Shown piece by piece: positions 3,563-53,405 of a DNA stretch of 64,000 bases (the first letter of the stretch is position 1; every line of letters starts with the position of its first letter). Both the position numbers and the translations under genes were made by a program. This DNA is from an uncultured Duodenibacillus sp. (GTDB lineage: Bacteria > Pseudomonadota > Gammaproteobacteria > Burkholderiales > Burkholderiaceae_F): positions 62,001 to 126,000 of the forward strand of contig CALXKM010000033.1 in NCBI GenBank assembly GCA_944388865.1. The letters are read 5' to 3'. Under the pieces are notes generated by a model that saw only the letters and a list, made by a program, of their open reading frames with translations, was not told where the DNA came from and did no database searches.

Positions 3563-3622
3563 TGCGCCTGACTCCAAGGCACTTTAATTTCGAAACCCGA
3601 CCTTTTGCGAGGCCGGGTTTTT
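3563..3622 (+). repeat. Left copy of 60-bp direct repeat flanking the IS
   Basis: These 60 bases recur exactly at 5619-5678, immediately outside the two ends of the IS at 3623-5618. The base after each copy is also C, which on the left is the first base of the IS. The repeat includes the whole ihfB terminator. Its position fits a long target-site duplication, which is a documented habit of IS1634-type elements. Confidence 0.85.
3593..3622 (+). terminator. Intrinsic terminator of ihfB
   Basis: AAACCCG at 3593-3599 pairs with CGGGTTT at 3614-3620, with an inner CC/GG extension after one mismatch. The 3' arm runs into a five-T tract. It lies 54 bases after the ihfB stop codon and is the expected end of the rpsA-ihfB transcript. 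Confidence 0.8.
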
Positions 3623-5618
3623 CCCGACTTTTTCACATGAAAATTGACTGATCCCTTGCTGGCCAAGGCTTTGCAGGGGATTTATTTTTCATCTAGCGTA
3701 GCCACTATGTAGCACAATATGATATAATGCACTTGTCAGATTTCCGGATCCTGTCATGTCGCGCAACGTCAGCATCATTTCCTGCAAAGGTTACAAATAC
3801 ATCCGCGTCTGCGAGAGTTACCGCAACGCTCAAGGACAACCGCGCTCCAAAGTCATTGAAAATCATGGGCGACTGGATGCGGCTTTGGCCAAAGATCCTG
3901 ACTATGTTGTCAAACTCAAAGAACGAGTCGCCCGAGAAAATGAGGCGGCTCGAGCAGCCCGATTCAAAGCTCTCGAAGACGATGCGCAAACCCGCATTCG
4001 TCGTCTGCAGAAAACCGCCGGCGGCGAGCCCGATTACAGCTGCGTCAAGCCGCTCAATATCGGCGCAGCCTTAATTCGCCAGGTTTGGAAGGATCTGGCT
4101 TTGCCGCAGGTGTTTCGTTATCTGCAAAGCAAGTCAAAGATTGAATACTCCTACGACAAAGCGGCTTTTCTCTTATCTTCCGAGCGCATTCTTCATCCGG
4201 GCAGCAAGCGCAACACCTTTTACGGGCGTGACAGAAGCATTGTTCCGTTTGATGAGATCTCCGACATCAATGTCATCTATCGCGTTCTCGATCGCTTGTC
4301 TCAAGACAAGGCCAACATCGTCCGTCACCTCAATCGAGAAATCAACAAGCGGCTCAATCGAACCGTTACCGCCGCGTTTTACGATGTCACCACCTATGCC
4401 TTTGAGAGCCGCAACGCCGACGAGCTTCGCAATTTCGGATTGAGCAAGGATCACAAGGTCAACGAAGTACAGGTCGTTCTCGGATTGGTCATGGACGAGT
4501 ACGGCATTCCCATTGATTACGACTTGTTTGAGGGAAGCACATCGGAGTTCGGAACGATGCTGCCGATGATTAAACGCATTCGGCACGACTATGACCTTAA
4601 GAAGTTGGTTGTGGTGGCAGACAGAGGACTGAATTCCAACGAAAATTTGCAGCAGCTCAGAGACCTGCAATGTGATTTTGTAATAGCCCAGAAAATCAAG
4701 AACTGTGCCGAGGAACAACAGGCAATCGTTCTTGACAGTGCTAATTGGCAGTCTGTGCTGACCGATGATGACGGCGTTGTCATCAGCTACAAGACGCTGG
4801 ACGTGAAAAAGGAAATCTACGAAACAAAGATCAGTCCCAAAACCGGCCGCAAATACAAAGTTGGCAAGCCCATTGATGAACTCGACGTTCGCTGGATTGT
4901 TTCATATTCCCGGTCTCGGGCAAAAAAGGACAACAGCGACATTGACAGGGCTGTGGAGAAGGCACAAAAGGCGCTGGCAAACGGAACAAATTTACTCAAA
5001 GCACGCGGTTATCGAAGCTTGATCGATATTCCCAAAGGCGAAGGCACGCCCAAACTTGATCTTGAGAAAATTGCCGAAGCACGCAAATGGGCCGGTTACT
5101 ACGCCGTATGCACCAATCTCAAGACTCAGAGCTCGCAGGATGTGATGGCGATATACCGCAATCTGTGGAGAATCGAAGACTGCTTCCGGGTGAGCAAATC
5201 GATGCTTGAGACGAGGCCCTGCTTTGTGTGGACGCCGGAGCATATCCGAGGCCACTTCATGAGCTGCTACATCAGTCTCGTACTCGAGAAATACATGGTT
5301 CACGTGCTGCAGAGCCATTCGAAGGATTTCACGGCTGAAAAGATCTGCCGTGCGATGCGCACAGCAATCGTCGTTTACGACGATGATGTGCAGTATCCGC
5401 AGTATCAAAGAGCCTATGAAGCCGAAAGCGGTTTTGACGAAATGCTCCGTATCTTTGGTTTAGAACCTCCGCTGAGGCGCGAAGACAAGCGTTCCCTCTC
5501 TAAGAAACTTCGCTTGAAGGAAATTTCAGCCGGGTAGTGCTACGCAAAATGAAATCTGAAATCCGGTTTTTACCAATAACGGCAAGGGGTTTCAGAATTT
5601 CATGCTGATAAAGACGGG
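3623..5618 (+). mobile_element. IS1634-like insertion sequence, intact (1996 bp)
   Basis: The ends form an imperfect inverted repeat: the left begins CCCGACTTTTTCACATGAAA and the right, read on the opposite strand, begins CCCGTCTTTATCAGCATGAA. A second matching patch lies further in (GCGTAGCCACTA left, GCGTAGCACTA right). The element carries one transposase gene of 593 codons and no passenger gene. Perfect 60-bp direct repeats lie outside both ends. The undamaged frame and identical repeats suggest a recent insertion. The exact ends are set from the inverted repeat; one base of ambiguity exists because a C follows both repeat copies. Confidence 0.85.
3756..5537 (+). CDS. IS1634-family DDE transposase
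   Basis: Transposase of the DDE (DDE_Tnp_1 / IS4-like superfamily) type with IS1634 character. The 593-residue protein has a family N-terminus (VSIISCKGYKYIRVCESYR) and candidate catalytic residues D210 (AAFYDVTTYAFES), D289 (VVVADRGLNS) and E474 (WRIEDCFRVSKSMLE). It ends in a basic tail. A good -10-like TATAAT lies at 3723-3728, but no convincing -35 was seen. The frame is intact, so the element may be active. Codon choice is more A/T-tolerant than in neighbouring rpsA, as expected for a mobile gene. Confidence 0.93.
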   Translation: MSRNVSIISCKGYKYIRVCESYRNAQGQPRSKVIENHGRLDAALAKDPDYVVKLKERVARENEAARAARFKALEDDAQTRIRRLQKTAGGEPDYSCVKPLNIGAALIRQVWKDLALPQVFRYLQSKSKIEYSYDKAAFLLSSERILHPGSKRNTFYGRDRSIVPFDEISDINVIYRVLDRLSQDKANIVRHLNREINKRLNRTVTAAFYDVTTYAFESRNADELRNFGLSKDHKVNEVQVVLGLVMDEYGIPIDYDLFEGSTSEFGTMLPMIKRIRHDYDLKKLVVVADRGLNSNENLQQLRDLQCDFVIAQKIKNCAEEQQAIVLDSANWQSVLTDDDGVVISYKTLDVKKEIYETKISPKTGRKYKVGKPIDELDVRWIVSYSRSRAKKDNSDIDRAVEKAQKALANGTNLLKARGYRSLIDIPKGEGTPKLDLEKIAEARKWAGYYAVCTNLKTQSSQDVMAIYRNLWRIEDCFRVSKSMLETRPCFVWTPEHIRGHFMSCYISLVLEKYMVHVLQSHSKDFTAEKICRAMRTAIVVYDDDVQYPQYQRAYEAESGFDEMLRIFGLEPPLRREDKRSLSKKLRLKEISAG

Positions 5619-5678
5619 TGCGCCTGACTCCAAGGCACTTTAATTTCGAAACCCGACCTTTTGCGAGGCCGGGTTTTT
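5619..5678 (+). repeat. Right copy of 60-bp direct repeat flanking the IS
   Basis: Exact repeat of 3563-3622. It contains a second full copy of the ihfB terminator, which now lies downstream of the transposase gene and upstream of fimV. Confidence 0.85.
5649..5678 (+). terminator. Duplicated ihfB terminator downstream of the IS
   Basis: Identical to the hairpin and T-tract at 3593-3622, carried by the right direct repeat. It should stop transcripts leaving the IS before fimV, so the insertion left both neighbouring transcription units insulated. Confidence 0.75.
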
Positions 5679-5837
5679 CTATGCAGAAAACTCGTTTGGC
5701 TCAAGCCAAACAGGTTGCGGAGTCTACGGTACAATCAGCAAAATCAGCATGCGCGGCCAGACTTCTTCTGAGCCTGGTGAAAATTCTCGTCAGCATGTAG
5801 TCTGAACTGCTTATCGATTCATAGAAAAGAAATCAAA

Positions 5838-48597: not shown

Positions 48598-49914
48598 ATG
48601 GACTCACTCATCCGCAACTGCGCCTCCATCAACGAACTGCTTGCGCGCTACGGCGTCAAGTTCGGCATCTACAAAAACGGGGCCTTTCATGAGCAGCTGT
48701 TTCCCTTTGATCCCATGCCGCGCATCATTGAAGCCAGACAGTGGGTCGAACTTTCTGCGGGGCTCGGGCAGCGGGTGCGGGCGCTCAATGCATTCTTGCT
48801 TGACATCTACGGCAAAAAGCAAATCGTGCGCGACGGCGTCGTGCCCGAGGAGTTTGTGTTTTCCTCTTCGGGCTTTTTGCGTGCATGCGACGGCCTGACG
48901 CCTCCGGCGGGTGTTTATGCGCACATCGCAGGCATTGACCTTGTGCAGGCCCTTGACAAGACCTGGTACGTGCTCGAAGACAATCTGCGCATTCCTTCGG
49001 GCGCATCCTATCCGCTCATCGCGCGTGAGATCTGCCGCAGAGCCTCGCCGCAGACCTTCAGAAGCGCAGGCATTCTGGAAAATCGCACCTATCCGGCCAT
49101 GCTTTCGCGCATGATGAAAAGCGTGGCGGCCGAGGGCATTTGCGTGATCATGACGCCGGGCCGCTACAATGCCGCCTTTTTTGAACACAGCTATTTGTCG
49201 GAAAAAACGGGCTTTGCTCTTGCCACCAACGAAGACCTCTTCGTTGAGGGAAATAAGCTCTATTTTCGCGACTGCGCCAAGGGACGCGTGCGCGTGGGCG
49301 CCGTGTACCGGCGCATTTCGGATGAATATTTGGATCCTTTGACGTTTCTTCCCGAAAGCCTCATCGGCGTGCCCGGCATCATGGATGCCTATCGGGCCGG
49401 AAATGTTGCCATCATCAACGCTCCGGGCAACGGCGTGGCCGACGATAAGGGCATTTACTACTTCGTGCCGAAAATGGTGGAGTACTACCTCGGTGAAAAA
49501 GCGATTTTGAAAAATGCTCCCACCTATCTGCCGTTTTATGAAGCAGACCGCGAGTATGTGCTCGATAATCTGCACAAGCTCGTGATCAAGGATGTGGCCG
49601 AAGCCGGAGGCTACGGTGTGGTCTTTGGAAGAGACATGACGGCCGATGAACTTGAGGGCTGGCGGCAGAGAATTCTCGCTGAGCCCCGTCGATTCATCGT
49701 GCAGGAAGTGATCGACTTCATTGATCTGCCGATAATTGAGGGCGCTCAAACCGTCTGCCGCAAGGCAGATTTGCGCGCTTTCGTACTCACGGGAGCCGAC
49801 GGCGTCGAGGTGTGGCCAAGCGGTTTGACGCGTTTTTCACGCGTTGCCGACAGCTTCGTGGTCAATTCGTCTCAAGGCGGCGGCTTTAAGGATACCTGGG
49901 TGAAGGCGGCCTAA
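48598..49914 (+). CDS. Circularly permuted ATP-grasp protein
   Basis: A 438-residue protein of the circularly permuted ATP-grasp family (CP_ATPgrasp type). Visible features are DGLTPPAGVYAHIAGIDLVQ, TWYVLEDNLRIPSGASYPL, PGIMDAYRAGNVAIINAPGNG, IKDVAEAGGYGVVFG and the C-terminal VVNSSQGGGFKDTWV. The family is predicted to form amide bonds using ATP, with no settled substrate. ATG 48598 is chosen from the family start and an AGGA upstream. It heads a five-gene run with alpha-E, transglutaminase and two M14-like proteins. The first three commonly occur together in bacteria. Confidence 0.9.
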   Translation: MDSLIRNCASINELLARYGVKFGIYKNGAFHEQLFPFDPMPRIIEARQWVELSAGLGQRVRALNAFLLDIYGKKQIVRDGVVPEEFVFSSSGFLRACDGLTPPAGVYAHIAGIDLVQALDKTWYVLEDNLRIPSGASYPLIAREICRRASPQTFRSAGILENRTYPAMLSRMMKSVAAEGICVIMTPGRYNAAFFEHSYLSEKTGFALATNEDLFVEGNKLYFRDCAKGRVRVGAVYRRISDEYLDPLTFLPESLIGVPGIMDAYRAGNVAIINAPGNGVADDKGIYYFVPKMVEYYLGEKAILKNAPTYLPFYEADREYVLDNLHKLVIKDVAEAGGYGVVFGRDMTADELEGWRQRILAEPRRFIVQEVIDFIDLPIIEGAQTVCRKADLRAFVLTGADGVEVWPSGLTRFSRVADSFVVNSSQGGGFKDTWVKAA

Positions 49915-50007
49915 GGCGCTTGCGGCTGATCTGTGCGGCTCTTTTCGCAAGAGCTGCCTGCGCACATGTCTTGAGCAGTCCAAAAACGCAAACACGGAAA
50001 AATTTTC

Positions 50008-50694
50008 ATGAAGTCTATGCAAGTCTCAACGGCCATTTCCGCCGAACAAGCTGATCGTCTCTACTGGCTGGGGCGCTATGTCGAGCGCGTGTACTCAACG
50101 CTGCGCCTTTTTAACCTTTCAATTGACCGCATGATCGACAAAGACGGAGAGGACTACGTCGAATTCTGCCGGCGGCTCGCCATTCCGTCGGACATCTACG
50201 CAGATGCCGACGATTTTCAGAGCCGCTACCTTTTTGATCCCTCCAATCCTGACTCGATCTATTCGAATCTTTCGCGTGCTTACGACAACGCGATTGTTCT
50301 TAGAAACTTCATCACGACCGAGACGATGGCCTACATTCAGCTTGCTCTTGACCGCCTCGAGCAGGGAGCGGTGGCCGATTCGGCATTTCTTGAAACGCAG
50401 CGCGTGGCCGACTGGCTGCTGGCGTTTTGGGGCTCGGTTGATGACCGCGTGGCCGATGTTGAGCGCCGCGACCTTCTGAAGGTCGGCAAATACTCCGAAC
50501 GTTTGGATCTTTTGATCCGTCTTGATGTTCCGGAATATGCCGTTGATGCACTGCTGCCGAGGCTTTTGTCGCATACTAAGCGTGTTGAGCCGCTGTTAAA
50601 CGGCGAGGTGCTCGCGCAGCTTCGCAGCTTGTCGGAGGCGGGCATGGAACAAAATCGCGCGCAACTCCTTAAACTTGTGAACCTTTTGCATTAA
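50008..50694 (+). CDS. Alpha-E domain protein (DUF403)
   Basis: A 228-residue all-helical protein of the alpha-E family. The signature lies at the start (EQADRLYWLGRYVERVYSTLRLFNLSIDRM). Alpha-E proteins are known only as partners of circularly permuted ATP-grasp and transglutaminase proteins; no reaction is established. It is shorter than many relatives (about 310 residues). It follows the ATP-grasp gene after 93 bases and precedes the transglutaminase gene by 22 bases. Confidence 0.88.
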   Translation: MKSMQVSTAISAEQADRLYWLGRYVERVYSTLRLFNLSIDRMIDKDGEDYVEFCRRLAIPSDIYADADDFQSRYLFDPSNPDSIYSNLSRAYDNAIVLRNFITTETMAYIQLALDRLEQGAVADSAFLETQRVADWLLAFWGSVDDRVADVERRDLLKVGKYSERLDLLIRLDVPEYAVDALLPRLLSHTKRVEPLLNGEVLAQLRSLSEAGMEQNRAQLLKLVNLLH

Positions 50695-50716
50695 CAGGCG
50701 TTTTTAGGAGCAAGCT

Positions 50717-51496
50717 TTGAAGTATCGCTATGCCCTCAGCACGGTGTTCGAATTTTCCGAGCCTGTGACGGGTCACGTCTTTCGCATTCGTCCGGTGCCG
50801 GCGCAGCTGCCCGGACAGAACGTCATCGAAACGCATTTGGTCACAAGTCCCATGCTGCCGCTGGCCTGTACCGAGGACAGCGTGCTGGGAAATTTGACAT
50901 GGACTGGCCGCATCGATGAGCCGCATGGTTCTTTTACGATTGCCTCCAAGGGCATCGTTGAGAGCGTTGATGCGCTCGAAAATGATATGCCGCCCGCACC
51001 GTACTTTGTCTACAGCACGGCTTTGACGCGTCCGGGAAAGAAAATCCTAGAGTTTTGGGAAAGCCTTAGGCCGCAGCTTGGCTTTGACGTCGAGCAGAAG
51101 GCTCTGCAGCTCATGCACGCCGTGCACCAGAGTTTTGAATACCGGCCGGGTGTGACAGGCACGCGAACAACTGCCGAAGATGCCATGACTTTAGGAGCTG
51201 GCGTTTGTCAAGACTATTCTCACGTCTTGATTGCCTTGCTGCGGCTTGCCGGCATTCCTGCGCTTTATGTGGCCGGCCTTGTGCATGGAACGGGAGCTAC
51301 GCATGCCTGGGTGCACGCTTGGGTGAAAAACCGCTGGCTTGCCCTTGATCCCACGCATGATTGTCCGGCGCATGAGGCGTATGTTGCGCTTGCGCGCGGG
51401 TGCGATTTTCAGGACGCAGCACTTGAGCGAGGAGTCTTTCTCGGCGGTGCCTCTCAAACGATAAAAACTCAGGCTGGTGTTGAGCCTATTGAATAA
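50717..51496 (+). CDS. Transglutaminase-like cysteine peptidase/ligase
   Basis: A 259-residue protein with an N-terminal beta-sheet domain (bacterial transglutaminase-like N region) and a catalytic core. C164 in GAGVCQDYSH, H196 in ATHAWVHAW and D211 in LDPTHD form the papain-like triad. The start is TTG at 50717, with AGGAG (50706-50710) six bases upstream; no suitable ATG exists near the conserved start. It is third in the ATP-grasp operon and may cleave or cross-link the product. Confidence 0.9.
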   Translation: MKYRYALSTVFEFSEPVTGHVFRIRPVPAQLPGQNVIETHLVTSPMLPLACTEDSVLGNLTWTGRIDEPHGSFTIASKGIVESVDALENDMPPAPYFVYSTALTRPGKKILEFWESLRPQLGFDVEQKALQLMHAVHQSFEYRPGVTGTRTTAEDAMTLGAGVCQDYSHVLIALLRLAGIPALYVAGLVHGTGATHAWVHAWVKNRWLALDPTHDCPAHEAYVALARGCDFQDAALERGVFLGGASQTIKTQAGVEPIE

Positions 51497-51501
51497 GAAA
51501 A

Positions 51502-52470
51502 ATGCTCAAACACGTCGTATCCATTCATATGCCGGTCGCCGAAAAGATGGTGATCCGAAAAAATCGCGTGCTCCCGCAGGGCTTCACAGAAGAAGAGGCG
51601 GCAAGCCGCAGACTTCCTCGCATTTGCGTAGCAACCGGAACGCATGGCGATGAGCTCGAAGGACAGTATGTGTGCTGGCGGCTTAACCGCATCCTTGCAG
51701 AAAATCCCCAGCATGTTTCCGGCGTCGTCGATATCTATCCGGCCATCAACCCCTTGGGGATTGATTCGATCACGCGCGGCATTCCTCGCTTTGATCTGGA
51801 TATGAACCGCATTTTTCCCGGAGATGCGAGGGGGACGACCGAAGAAGCAATCGCAGCCAGAATCATTGCGGACATGAAAGGTGCATCCTGTGCGGTGGAC
51901 ATTCACGCCTCAAACATTTTTCTGCGCGAGATTCCGCAGGTGCGCGTCAATGTCAATACGGCCGACAAGCTGCTTCCTTTGGCGCGTGAACTCAATTGCG
52001 ATTTCATTTGGGTGCATGCGGCCGCAACCGTGCTCGAGAGCACGCTTGCCTGGTCGCTCAACAAGATCGGCGTGCCTTGTCTGGTGATTGAAGCCGGCGT
52101 CGGTATGCGCATTACGCAGGACTATGGAGAAAGAATCACGGCAGGACTGCTGCGGCTGATGAAGCGTCTGGGCATCTGGAGCGGTCCGGTGTCCGAGGTG
52201 ACAGAACCGATTGTTTCCACCGACGGACGCGTGGGGTTCGTCAACGCCAACAGTCCGGGCATCTTCATTCCCAAGGTCGAGCACTGGATGAACATTCATC
52301 AGGGGCAGACGCTGGGACTCATTACAAATCCGGCCGACGGCGGCGTTCTCGAAGAGGTCAAAAGTCCCTGCAACGGACTGGTCTTTACTCTGCGCGAATA
52401 TCCCGTCGTCAATCCCGGCTCGCTCGTGGCGCGCGTTCTTGACGTCGACTCCAAGGAGGGCGCAAAGTGA
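51502..52470 (+). CDS. AstE/AspA-family M14-like metallohydrolase, intact site
   Basis: A 322-residue zinc amidohydrolase of the succinylglutamate desuccinylase/aspartoacylase family. The metal ligands are H48 and E51 in TGTHGDE and H135 in VDIHAS; N102-R103 in LDMNRIFPG and the catalytic-type E197 in VIEAG are also present. It starts five bases after the transglutaminase stop codon and overlaps the next gene by four bases. Members remove acyl groups from amino acids or peptides. Here context points to the ATP-grasp product as substrate, which is inference. Confidence 0.88.
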   Translation: MLKHVVSIHMPVAEKMVIRKNRVLPQGFTEEEAASRRLPRICVATGTHGDELEGQYVCWRLNRILAENPQHVSGVVDIYPAINPLGIDSITRGIPRFDLDMNRIFPGDARGTTEEAIAARIIADMKGASCAVDIHASNIFLREIPQVRVNVNTADKLLPLARELNCDFIWVHAAATVLESTLAWSLNKIGVPCLVIEAGVGMRITQDYGERITAGLLRLMKRLGIWSGPVSEVTEPIVSTDGRVGFVNANSPGIFIPKVEHWMNIHQGQTLGLITNPADGGVLEEVKSPCNGLVFTLREYPVVNPGSLVARVLDVDSKEGAK

Positions 52471-53405
52471 AGAAAGTCAAGATTTTTGAGATGCCCTCGC
52501 TTTACCGTGAGCCGCTTGAAATCACTGGATATCGCTTCGGCAGGGGAGAAAAAAGCGCAGCCGTGGTCGGCGCCATGCGCGGCAATGAAATTCAGCAGCT
52601 CTACATCTGCTCGCAGCTCGTGCGCAAGCTCAAGGCAATCGAGGCCGAAGGAGGCGTTCGCGAGGGCGCTTCCATTGAAGTCATCCCGTGCGTCAATCCC
52701 TATTCGGTCAATATCGGCAAGCGCTTTTGGGCGATGGACGACACCGACATCAACCGCATGTTCCCAGGCTACGATCAGGGAGAGACGACGCAGCGCATTG
52801 CAGCCGGCCTTTTCAAACATCTCGAAGGCTGGAAGTGGGGCGTGCACTTTGCGTCGTTTTATTTAAGAGGCGACTTTGTTCCTCATGTGCGCATGATGCA
52901 GACCGACTTCGGCGACCCTCAAGCGGCCATGGACTTCGGTCTGCCTTTTGTGTTCGTGCGCAAGCCTTCGCCGATGGATACAACGACGCTCAACTACAAC
53001 TGGCAGATTTGGGATACGCGCGCTTATACGATTTTTACGAGCCAAACGAATCATATCGATCAGACATCGGCCGATATTGCCGTCAATGCCGTGCTGCGCT
53101 TTCTCGTCAAAAGAGGCCTTATCGACTATCGCATTGACGGAGGCCGCGTGCCGGAAATGCTCCATGAGTCCTGGATTGCCTCCGTGCACGCCGGCGCGGC
53201 AGGCATCTTCAGGCGCCTGATGGCTCCGGGAGCCCAAGCGCACAAGGGCGAGTTGATGGGCGAAATCATTGATCCCTGCGAAGGACATGTGCTGCGCGAG
53301 ATTGAGGCGCCCTGCGACGGTCTGATCTTTTTTGCCTGCCATGACGCTCTGGTGATGCAGCGCCAGATTCTTTTCGGCGTCATCAAGGATTTTCACGCGG
53401 GTTAG
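52467..53405 (+). CDS. AstE/AspA-family M14-like protein with altered active site
   Basis: A 312-residue paralogue of the previous gene. It starts at GTG 52467, overlapping the upstream stop by four bases (GTGA), with AAGGAGG at 52453-52459. In the aligned zinc motif the first His is replaced: AMRGNE has R38 where the neighbour has H48, while E41 and H127 remain. The catalytic Glu in VIEAG is replaced by R165 in VFVRKP. It keeps the fold features DTDINRMFPG. It is probably a pseudoenzyme or regulatory partner of the first protein, perhaps in a heterodimer. Confidence 0.85.
   Translation: MKKVKIFEMPSLYREPLEITGYRFGRGEKSAAVVGAMRGNEIQQLYICSQLVRKLKAIEAEGGVREGASIEVIPCVNPYSVNIGKRFWAMDDTDINRMFPGYDQGETTQRIAAGLFKHLEGWKWGVHFASFYLRGDFVPHVRMMQTDFGDPQAAMDFGLPFVFVRKPSPMDTTTLNYNWQIWDTRAYTIFTSQTNHIDQTSADIAVNAVLRFLVKRGLIDYRIDGGRVPEMLHESWIASVHAGAAGIFRRLMAPGAQAHKGELMGEIIDPCEGHVLREIEAPCDGLIFFACHDALVMQRQILFGVIKDFHAG

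Follow-up and report, generated by a model that had tools for sequence, protein, structure and literature searches.

Organisation of the five-gene operon

The window analysed here, a 64-kb stretch (contig CALXKM010000033.1) of the 2.49-Mb genome of an uncultured Duodenibacillus sp., carries five genes on one strand that encode, in order, a circularly permuted (CP) ATP-grasp ligase, an alpha-E protein, a transglutaminase-like enzyme (TG) and two tandem AstE/AspA-type proteins of the M14 family, M14a and M14b (Table 1). Our comparisons show that the first three genes, hereafter the trio, stand in fixed order ahead of an M14 pair composed of one intact and one apparently active-site-less paralogue, both under purifying selection as judged from their sequences. 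The gene coordinates and the intergenic gaps of 93, 22, 5 and -4 nt are exactly those of a first-pass annotation of the window, which also regarded the trio as a set that forms amide bonds, a proposal supported by family membership.

Table 1. Features of the five-gene operon, in window coordinates
Feature	Coordinates	Strand	Basis
Circularly permuted ATP-grasp ligase	48598..49914	+	PF14403 E 3.4e-138; PDB 3n6x E 9.6e-117
Short-type alpha-E protein, 228 aa	50008..50694	+	PF04168 84.6 bits, model 6-164 of 294
Transglutaminase-like cysteine enzyme, C164/H196/D211 kept	50717..51496	+	PF01841 (Transglut_core), PF08379 (Bact_transglu_N)
M14a, AstE/AspA-type zinc amidohydrolase, complete active site	51502..52470	+	PF24827 72.4 bits
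M14b, AstE/AspA-type paralogue without zinc His ligands or catalytic Glu	52467..53405	+	PF24827 40.2 bits
Overlap of M14a stop with M14b start, 4 nt	52467..52470	+	ORF coordinates

The ATP-grasp gene matches the Pfam family CP_ATPgrasp_2 with 461 bits. The alpha-E protein scores above the cut-off of its family but is of a short type, covering model positions 6-164 only, and in a profile comparison it aligns with long alpha-E over the first ~172 residues only; the division into long and short types, by score and coverage, is our own. C164, H196 and D211 of the TG, which we take to be its catalytic triad, are conserved in at least 97% of 79 rows.

With start codons chosen by script, the distance between M14a and M14b is -4 nt in 48 of 93 loci and lies within -23 to +23 nt in all 93, and the TG-to-M14a spacing is 25 nt or less in 53 of 79. 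The 4-nt overlap of the M14 genes is likely to entail translational coupling. By the same choice of starts, the ATP-grasp and alpha-E genes, which are separated by 93 nt here (49915-50007), overlap by ~19 nt in 50 of 76 relatives. A single transcript is suggested by spacing and conserved order alone, since pattern counts for promoters (3, in line with the 2.7 expected from shuffled sequence) and terminators (9 versus 7.0) were not above the shuffles. Chance adjacency of the five genes is rejected, as their fixed order recurs in many genomes. The operon is flanked by a FeoB gene upstream and ribonucleotide reductase genes downstream, and no sixth conserved gene was found, the commonest other neighbour cluster occurring in 15 of 80 loci.

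Active-site residues, selection and descent of M14a and M14b

M14a belongs to the AstE/AspA family both by profile match and by its zinc and catalytic residues, and like the AstE/AspA/DoeB M14 deacylases it keeps the HxxE, NR and DxH motifs and the Glu. Its solved relatives include 3cdx, 2qj8 and DoeB (6twl/6twm), an N-acyl amino acid deacylase, and alignments to solved relatives place the active site at H48, E51, N102, R103, H135 and E197 in window numbering, residues that we presume to have the corresponding catalytic roles. E51, N102, H135 and E197 are present in all 97 rows (96 distinct) of M14a, H48 and R103 in 96, and the catalytic Glu in 98 of 98 rows when genome G1068 is included.

M14b matches the same family, and its tandem presence without catalytic residues sets the pair apart from the known deacylases of this group. 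The M14b of the window has neither zinc His nor the catalytic Glu. More broadly, the Glu is missing from 99 of 99 rows (98 rows, 96 distinct, plus G1068), the first zinc His position holds Arg in 94 of 98 rows and His in four, and the second zinc His is absent in 94 of 98; both ligands are lost in 94 of 94 gut-type M14b rows. The positions of E51, N102 and R103 are kept in all 98. A pairwise alignment of the two proteins of the window allows H128 of M14b to be placed over the second zinc ligand. In the large alignment it lies two columns off, at a position with Gln in 80 of 98 rows, so that H128 cannot be counted as a conserved ligand. The first-pass annotation had described both M14 proteins as amidohydrolases, which stands for M14a, a hydrolase in a conserved operon, and fails for M14b, which lacks the Glu in every row. 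Taken together, M14a is likely to be the active subunit and M14b is probably a non-catalytic one.

Five M14b proteins (from G313, G978, G999, G1068 and G369) retain the zinc ligands, and in these the catalytic Glu is replaced by Gln, Met or Val; in the G1068 pair, the position is Glu in M14a and Val in M14b. The first four lie in five-gene operons with a long alpha-E, and the G369 pair lacks an adjacent trio, with CP-ATP-grasp matches ~15 kb away on the same contig. In G978, the M14a profile gives the second M14 gene its highest score (162 bits); position, residues and tree led us to call it M14b. As these five proteins are already without the Glu, a stepwise loss of catalysis in M14b is suggested, in which loss of the Glu would have preceded that of the zinc site, the latter in the gut branch. 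The pair is a natural series of enzyme-to-pseudoenzyme decay within a conserved gene pair.

M14b is not a decaying pseudogene. Six of seven pairwise comparisons give dN/dS values of 0.02-0.21, indicating purifying selection (synonymous sites are saturated in the other one), and long blocks are conserved. Motifs specific to M14b are RGNE, RFWAMD, DINRMFPG and GETTQRIA, and its conserved polar residues comprise R38, N40, E41, D91, D94, N96, R97, H140, D171, N176, N178 and Q180.

In a careful tree of 52 rows, all 26 M14a split from all 26 M14b at 100/100 (unrooted, with long branches flagged), and in a quick tree with a very distant outgroup the gut M14b branches first. One old M14a/M14b duplication is the simplest reading of these sequences. 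The trees, all unrooted, were built on row subsets of 68, 85 and 52; among the alignments, A2 omits locus L008, A3 comprises the window and 47 of 80 loci, and A4 the window and 46 loci. L032 and L158 are one contig counted twice.

Distribution of the operon

The five-gene operon is found in many Clostridia, in part of the Sutterellaceae and in a small number of distant relatives. Within the family of the window, M14b was matched in 15 of 67 genomes, and in 14 once the weak match of G057 (3.7e-4) is set aside; M14a likewise matches strongly in these 14 and more weakly in G057 and G061, and all 14 pair-carrying genomes, the window included, show ATP-grasp, alpha-E, TG, M14a and M14b in order. 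In a sample of 321 genomes from the class of the window, 98 matched at E <= 0.001, mostly partially or weakly, and 1e-30 was reached only by the window, G369 and G313. In the corresponding phylum sample, the eight of 398 genomes at E <= 1e-15 were the window, G1068 with all five genes, and six with single M14 genes, which are complete in their active sites and have nothing matching the trio within the 15 kb retrieved. Four more distant genomes (G313, G978, G999 and G1068) also show the five-gene order, with a long alpha-E.

A scan of 84,980 GTDB species genomes gave at least 595 pattern matches and 552 confirmed relatives among the matches listed, the best 80 of which were kept. By title, nearly all of these 80 are Clostridia or other Firmicutes, the others being one Duodenibacillus and one contig filed under Methanomethylophilaceae. 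The latter (L085, labelled as an archaeon) has all five genes of the operon and clusters with rows from Clostridia; it is either a misbinned contig or a transfer into an archaeon. M14a and M14b adjoin in 80 of these best 80 loci. The five genes stand in order in 63 of them (seven with one gene matched by two ORFs); three start inside the operon, with the ATP-grasp missing, and 14 show the pair only. Among these 14, the sequence begins within 1.5 kb upstream of the pair in six and reaches at least 6 kb upstream in eight.

Around G393, the Ruminococcus flavefaciens genome of locus L089, alpha-E was found in seven of 291 genomes of the class sample, always of the short type, and six of the seven carry all five genes, the seventh being cut by a contig end; in the phylum sample of G393, the six of 398 genomes that matched at E <= 1e-20 all have the five genes in order. 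The concern raised in the first-pass annotation that the M14 genes might adjoin the trio in this genome alone is dispelled by the 14 of 67 family genomes, the 63 of the best 80 loci and the four distant genomes. As for its other concern, that the arrangement might be both widespread and already described, the first half is true; no description of the M14-pair variant was recognised in the literature searched, which did not cover the key survey of Iyer et al. 2009.

In the ATP-grasp tree, the Sutterellaceae rows other than G047 form one clade (98, L032 included) inside the Clostridia rows, and G013, of the same genus as the window, has an ATP-grasp row identical to that of Duodenibacillus L032. 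In the row labels of this tree, set by script, L032 counts among the Clostridia, although by title it is a Duodenibacillus (Sutterellaceae). The quick tree, built without bootstrap, is consistent with a likely transfer from Clostridia to Sutterellaceae. At L153, in G047, a Fic-family gene follows the TG of a short-type trio, and the G047 genome has no M14a or M14b match.

Carriage on plasmids is not supported, the four plasmid matches being weak (22-24% identity). Five records labelled 'Bacteriophage sp.' also match. In the two that were read, L240 (MT835471.1) and L241 (MT835514.1), the ORFs around the M14 pair seem chromosomal on inspection by eye (nusB-, recN- and glpK-like); both are probably bacterial contigs filed as phage, so that phage carriage is likewise not supported. 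Elsewhere in the window (3563-5679), a DDE_Tnp_1 transposase gene at 3756-5537 is flanked by perfect direct repeats of 61 nt, one on either side, and each repeat contains a terminator-like hairpin, as seen by eye. Long variable target repeats are typical of the IS1634 family.

Comparison with the Anbu operon and other known systems

The Anbu operon, which the first-pass annotation does not name, is the closest published system. It combines ATP-grasp, alphaE and transglutaminase genes with Anbu, a proteasome-like Ntn-hydrolase (PMC5666114, PMC6376114). All three partner families occur in the window, likewise with a hydrolase gene in the operon, and in many classical loci ATP-grasp and then alpha-E also come first. 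Unlike the Anbu operon, the present one has the M14a/M14b pair instead of Anbu and, in the gut type, a short alpha-E.

A profile built from seven family Anbu genes, the identity of which was checked by a match to solved Anbu chains (E 4e-93), matched none of 106 pair loci (the 64-kb window and 105 others), so that no Anbu gene was found in the operon of the window. It matched 34 of 60 control loci, seven of which had supplied its sequences; the controls were 19 plus 40 long-alpha-E loci and an HslV locus, which gave no match. A PF00227 search of the genome of the window returned HslV alone; this model misses or barely reaches Anbu, since genuine Anbu proteins score 22.2 and 16.4 bits with it and so fall short of the cut-off.

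Alpha-E is present in 33 of the 67 family genomes, 18 with the long and 15 with the short type. Twelve of the 18 long-type genomes have Anbu next to the trio, and the M14 pair was found in none of 19 fetched long-type loci, several of them on short contigs; the pair occurs in 14 of the 15 short-type genomes (Fisher p 1.8e-8, uncorrected for kinship). In another class sample, alpha-E is present in 83 of 294 genomes; 40 of these supplied 40 long-type loci, 22 of which have Anbu near and none the pair, with a single M14a-like gene at one (L200). Five classical Anbu loci (L141, L143, L144, L145 and L146) contain a second ATP-grasp frame of ~850 aa that also matches alpha-E, together with a very long TG-matching ORF.

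A trio operon of B. cenocepacia is dependent on NtrC/sigma54 (PMC5491218), which suggests a link between the classical type and nitrogen metabolism. Unlike that operon, the one described here has no sigma54-like site directly upstream within 2 mismatches, and the window as a whole has 95 such matches versus 98 in shuffles.

Other known systems are more remote. The score against the DoeB model, 40.4 bits, is far below its cut-off of 402.7. Glutathionylspermidine synthetase/amidase unites an ATP-grasp synthetase with a cysteine amidase of the CHAP type, so that one amide is both made and broken. The only solved ATP-grasp matched, 3n6x, is labelled a putative glutathionylspermidine synthase. Unlike that enzyme, the present system has separate genes, a cysteine enzyme of the transglutaminase family, and in addition alpha-E and the zinc amidase pair. 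PADLOC anti-phage models returned no families for the five operon proteins, and a reading as a defence system is not supported.

Discussion

On balance, we lean towards reading the M14-pair operon as a counterpart of the Anbu operon, with the M14 pair in the hydrolase slot and M14b as a non-catalytic partner of M14a. Since the relatives of M14a include DoeB, and given the chemistry of ATP-grasp enzymes and the Cys-His-Asp residues of the TG, we propose that the trio makes an amide or isopeptide and that M14a cleaves an amide. ATP-grasp enzymes as a superfamily form an acyl-phosphate and then an amide, and the ATP-grasp of the Anbu operon releases orthophosphate (PMC6376114). By such a route, the ATP-grasp would activate a carboxylate as an acyl-phosphate and join it to an amine, alpha-E would assist in some way, and the trio would thereby make an amide or isopeptide on a small molecule; the transglutaminase-like enzyme would cleave or transfer the amide. 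M14a, as a zinc amidase, could hydrolyse an amide adjoining a free carboxylate held by N102-R103 and take the product-release role proposed for Anbu. M14b may form a heteromer with M14a, in which its part would be carboxylate binding or regulation rather than catalysis, and an invariant Arg-Glu pair may stand in for the zinc in M14b of the gut type. The solved relatives suggest that the substrate is not a protein but a small molecule, either an N-acyl amino acid or an isopeptide.

Several observations weigh against this reading. Even the Anbu model system is unproven: in PMC6376114, tests of Anbu gave no peptidase activity, the operon proteins had no specific interaction, and the hypotheses on the function of the operon stood unconfirmed. 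The short-type trio of G047 is not accompanied by the pair. An Anbu trio and a pair trio coexist in G313 at separate loci, so that strict mutual exclusion of Anbu and the pair is rejected, and in the ATP-grasp tree, where short-type rows split from all classical rows (SH-aLRT 100), the ATP-grasp of the G313 pair trio groups on the classical side. We infer the M14a/M14b heteromer from gene pairing only. Finally, the pair also occurs without a CP-ATP-grasp: no match above the cut-off was found in any of six pair-only genomes checked, compared with two of two trio-bearing genomes (L089 and L085). Of the eight pair-only loci that have 6 kb or more upstream, the check covered the genomes of L063, L080, L091, L095, L109 and L111, and that of L109 has one match of 19.7 bits, below the cut-off. 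The substrate of M14a therefore need not be the product of the trio, and the self-contained module of synthesis and hydrolysis proposed in the first-pass annotation is weakened, although its addition of a hydrolase to a conserved operon stands.

These last observations are also what favours an alternative that we consider unlikely, in which the pair is an independent two-subunit scavenging amidase for an outside N-acyl amino acid or peptide and merely travels with the trio. The pair-only loci with at least 6 kb upstream (L063, L069, L070, L080, L091, L095, L109 and L111, eight of the best 80 of 552) are scattered among trio-bearing rows, forcing at least three changes for M14a and two for M14b. 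Independence of this kind is difficult to reconcile with the fixed order in every pair-carrying genome of the family, with the five genes in six of the seven alpha-E genomes around G393 (the seventh truncated), and with an order kept in distant long-alpha-E lineages and a commonly close spacing between TG and M14a.

The many conserved polar residues of M14b and the strong purifying selection on it could also reflect a new, zinc-free activity in a rebuilt pocket. We regard this as improbable, as the residues that define M14 chemistry are lost and the five relatives that keep the zinc ligands are already without the Glu, which suggests stepwise loss rather than a switch. That both proteins are active amidohydrolases and together add a de-acylation step, as the first-pass annotation had it, is very improbable indeed, for although M14a and M14b both score above the AstE_AspA_cat (PF24827) cut-off of 25 bits, M14b is without the catalytic Glu and the zinc His ligands.

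Returning to the reading of the operon as an Anbu-operon counterpart, a broader and more speculative extension, which we put forward as possible rather than probable, would make it a second and widespread class of Anbu-type conjugation system for peptides or amides. In this class, the proteasome-like peptidase would have been replaced by a two-subunit zinc amidase with a dedicated pseudoenzyme, the Glu would have been lost before the lineages split, the zinc site of the gut branch would have been rebuilt around the invariant Arg-Glu pair, and the system would have passed from gut Clostridia to Sutterellaceae.

In summary, M14a comes from a better understood family, that of the N-acyl amino acid deacylases, and so offers an easier handle on the operon; its substrate may reveal the bond that the trio makes.

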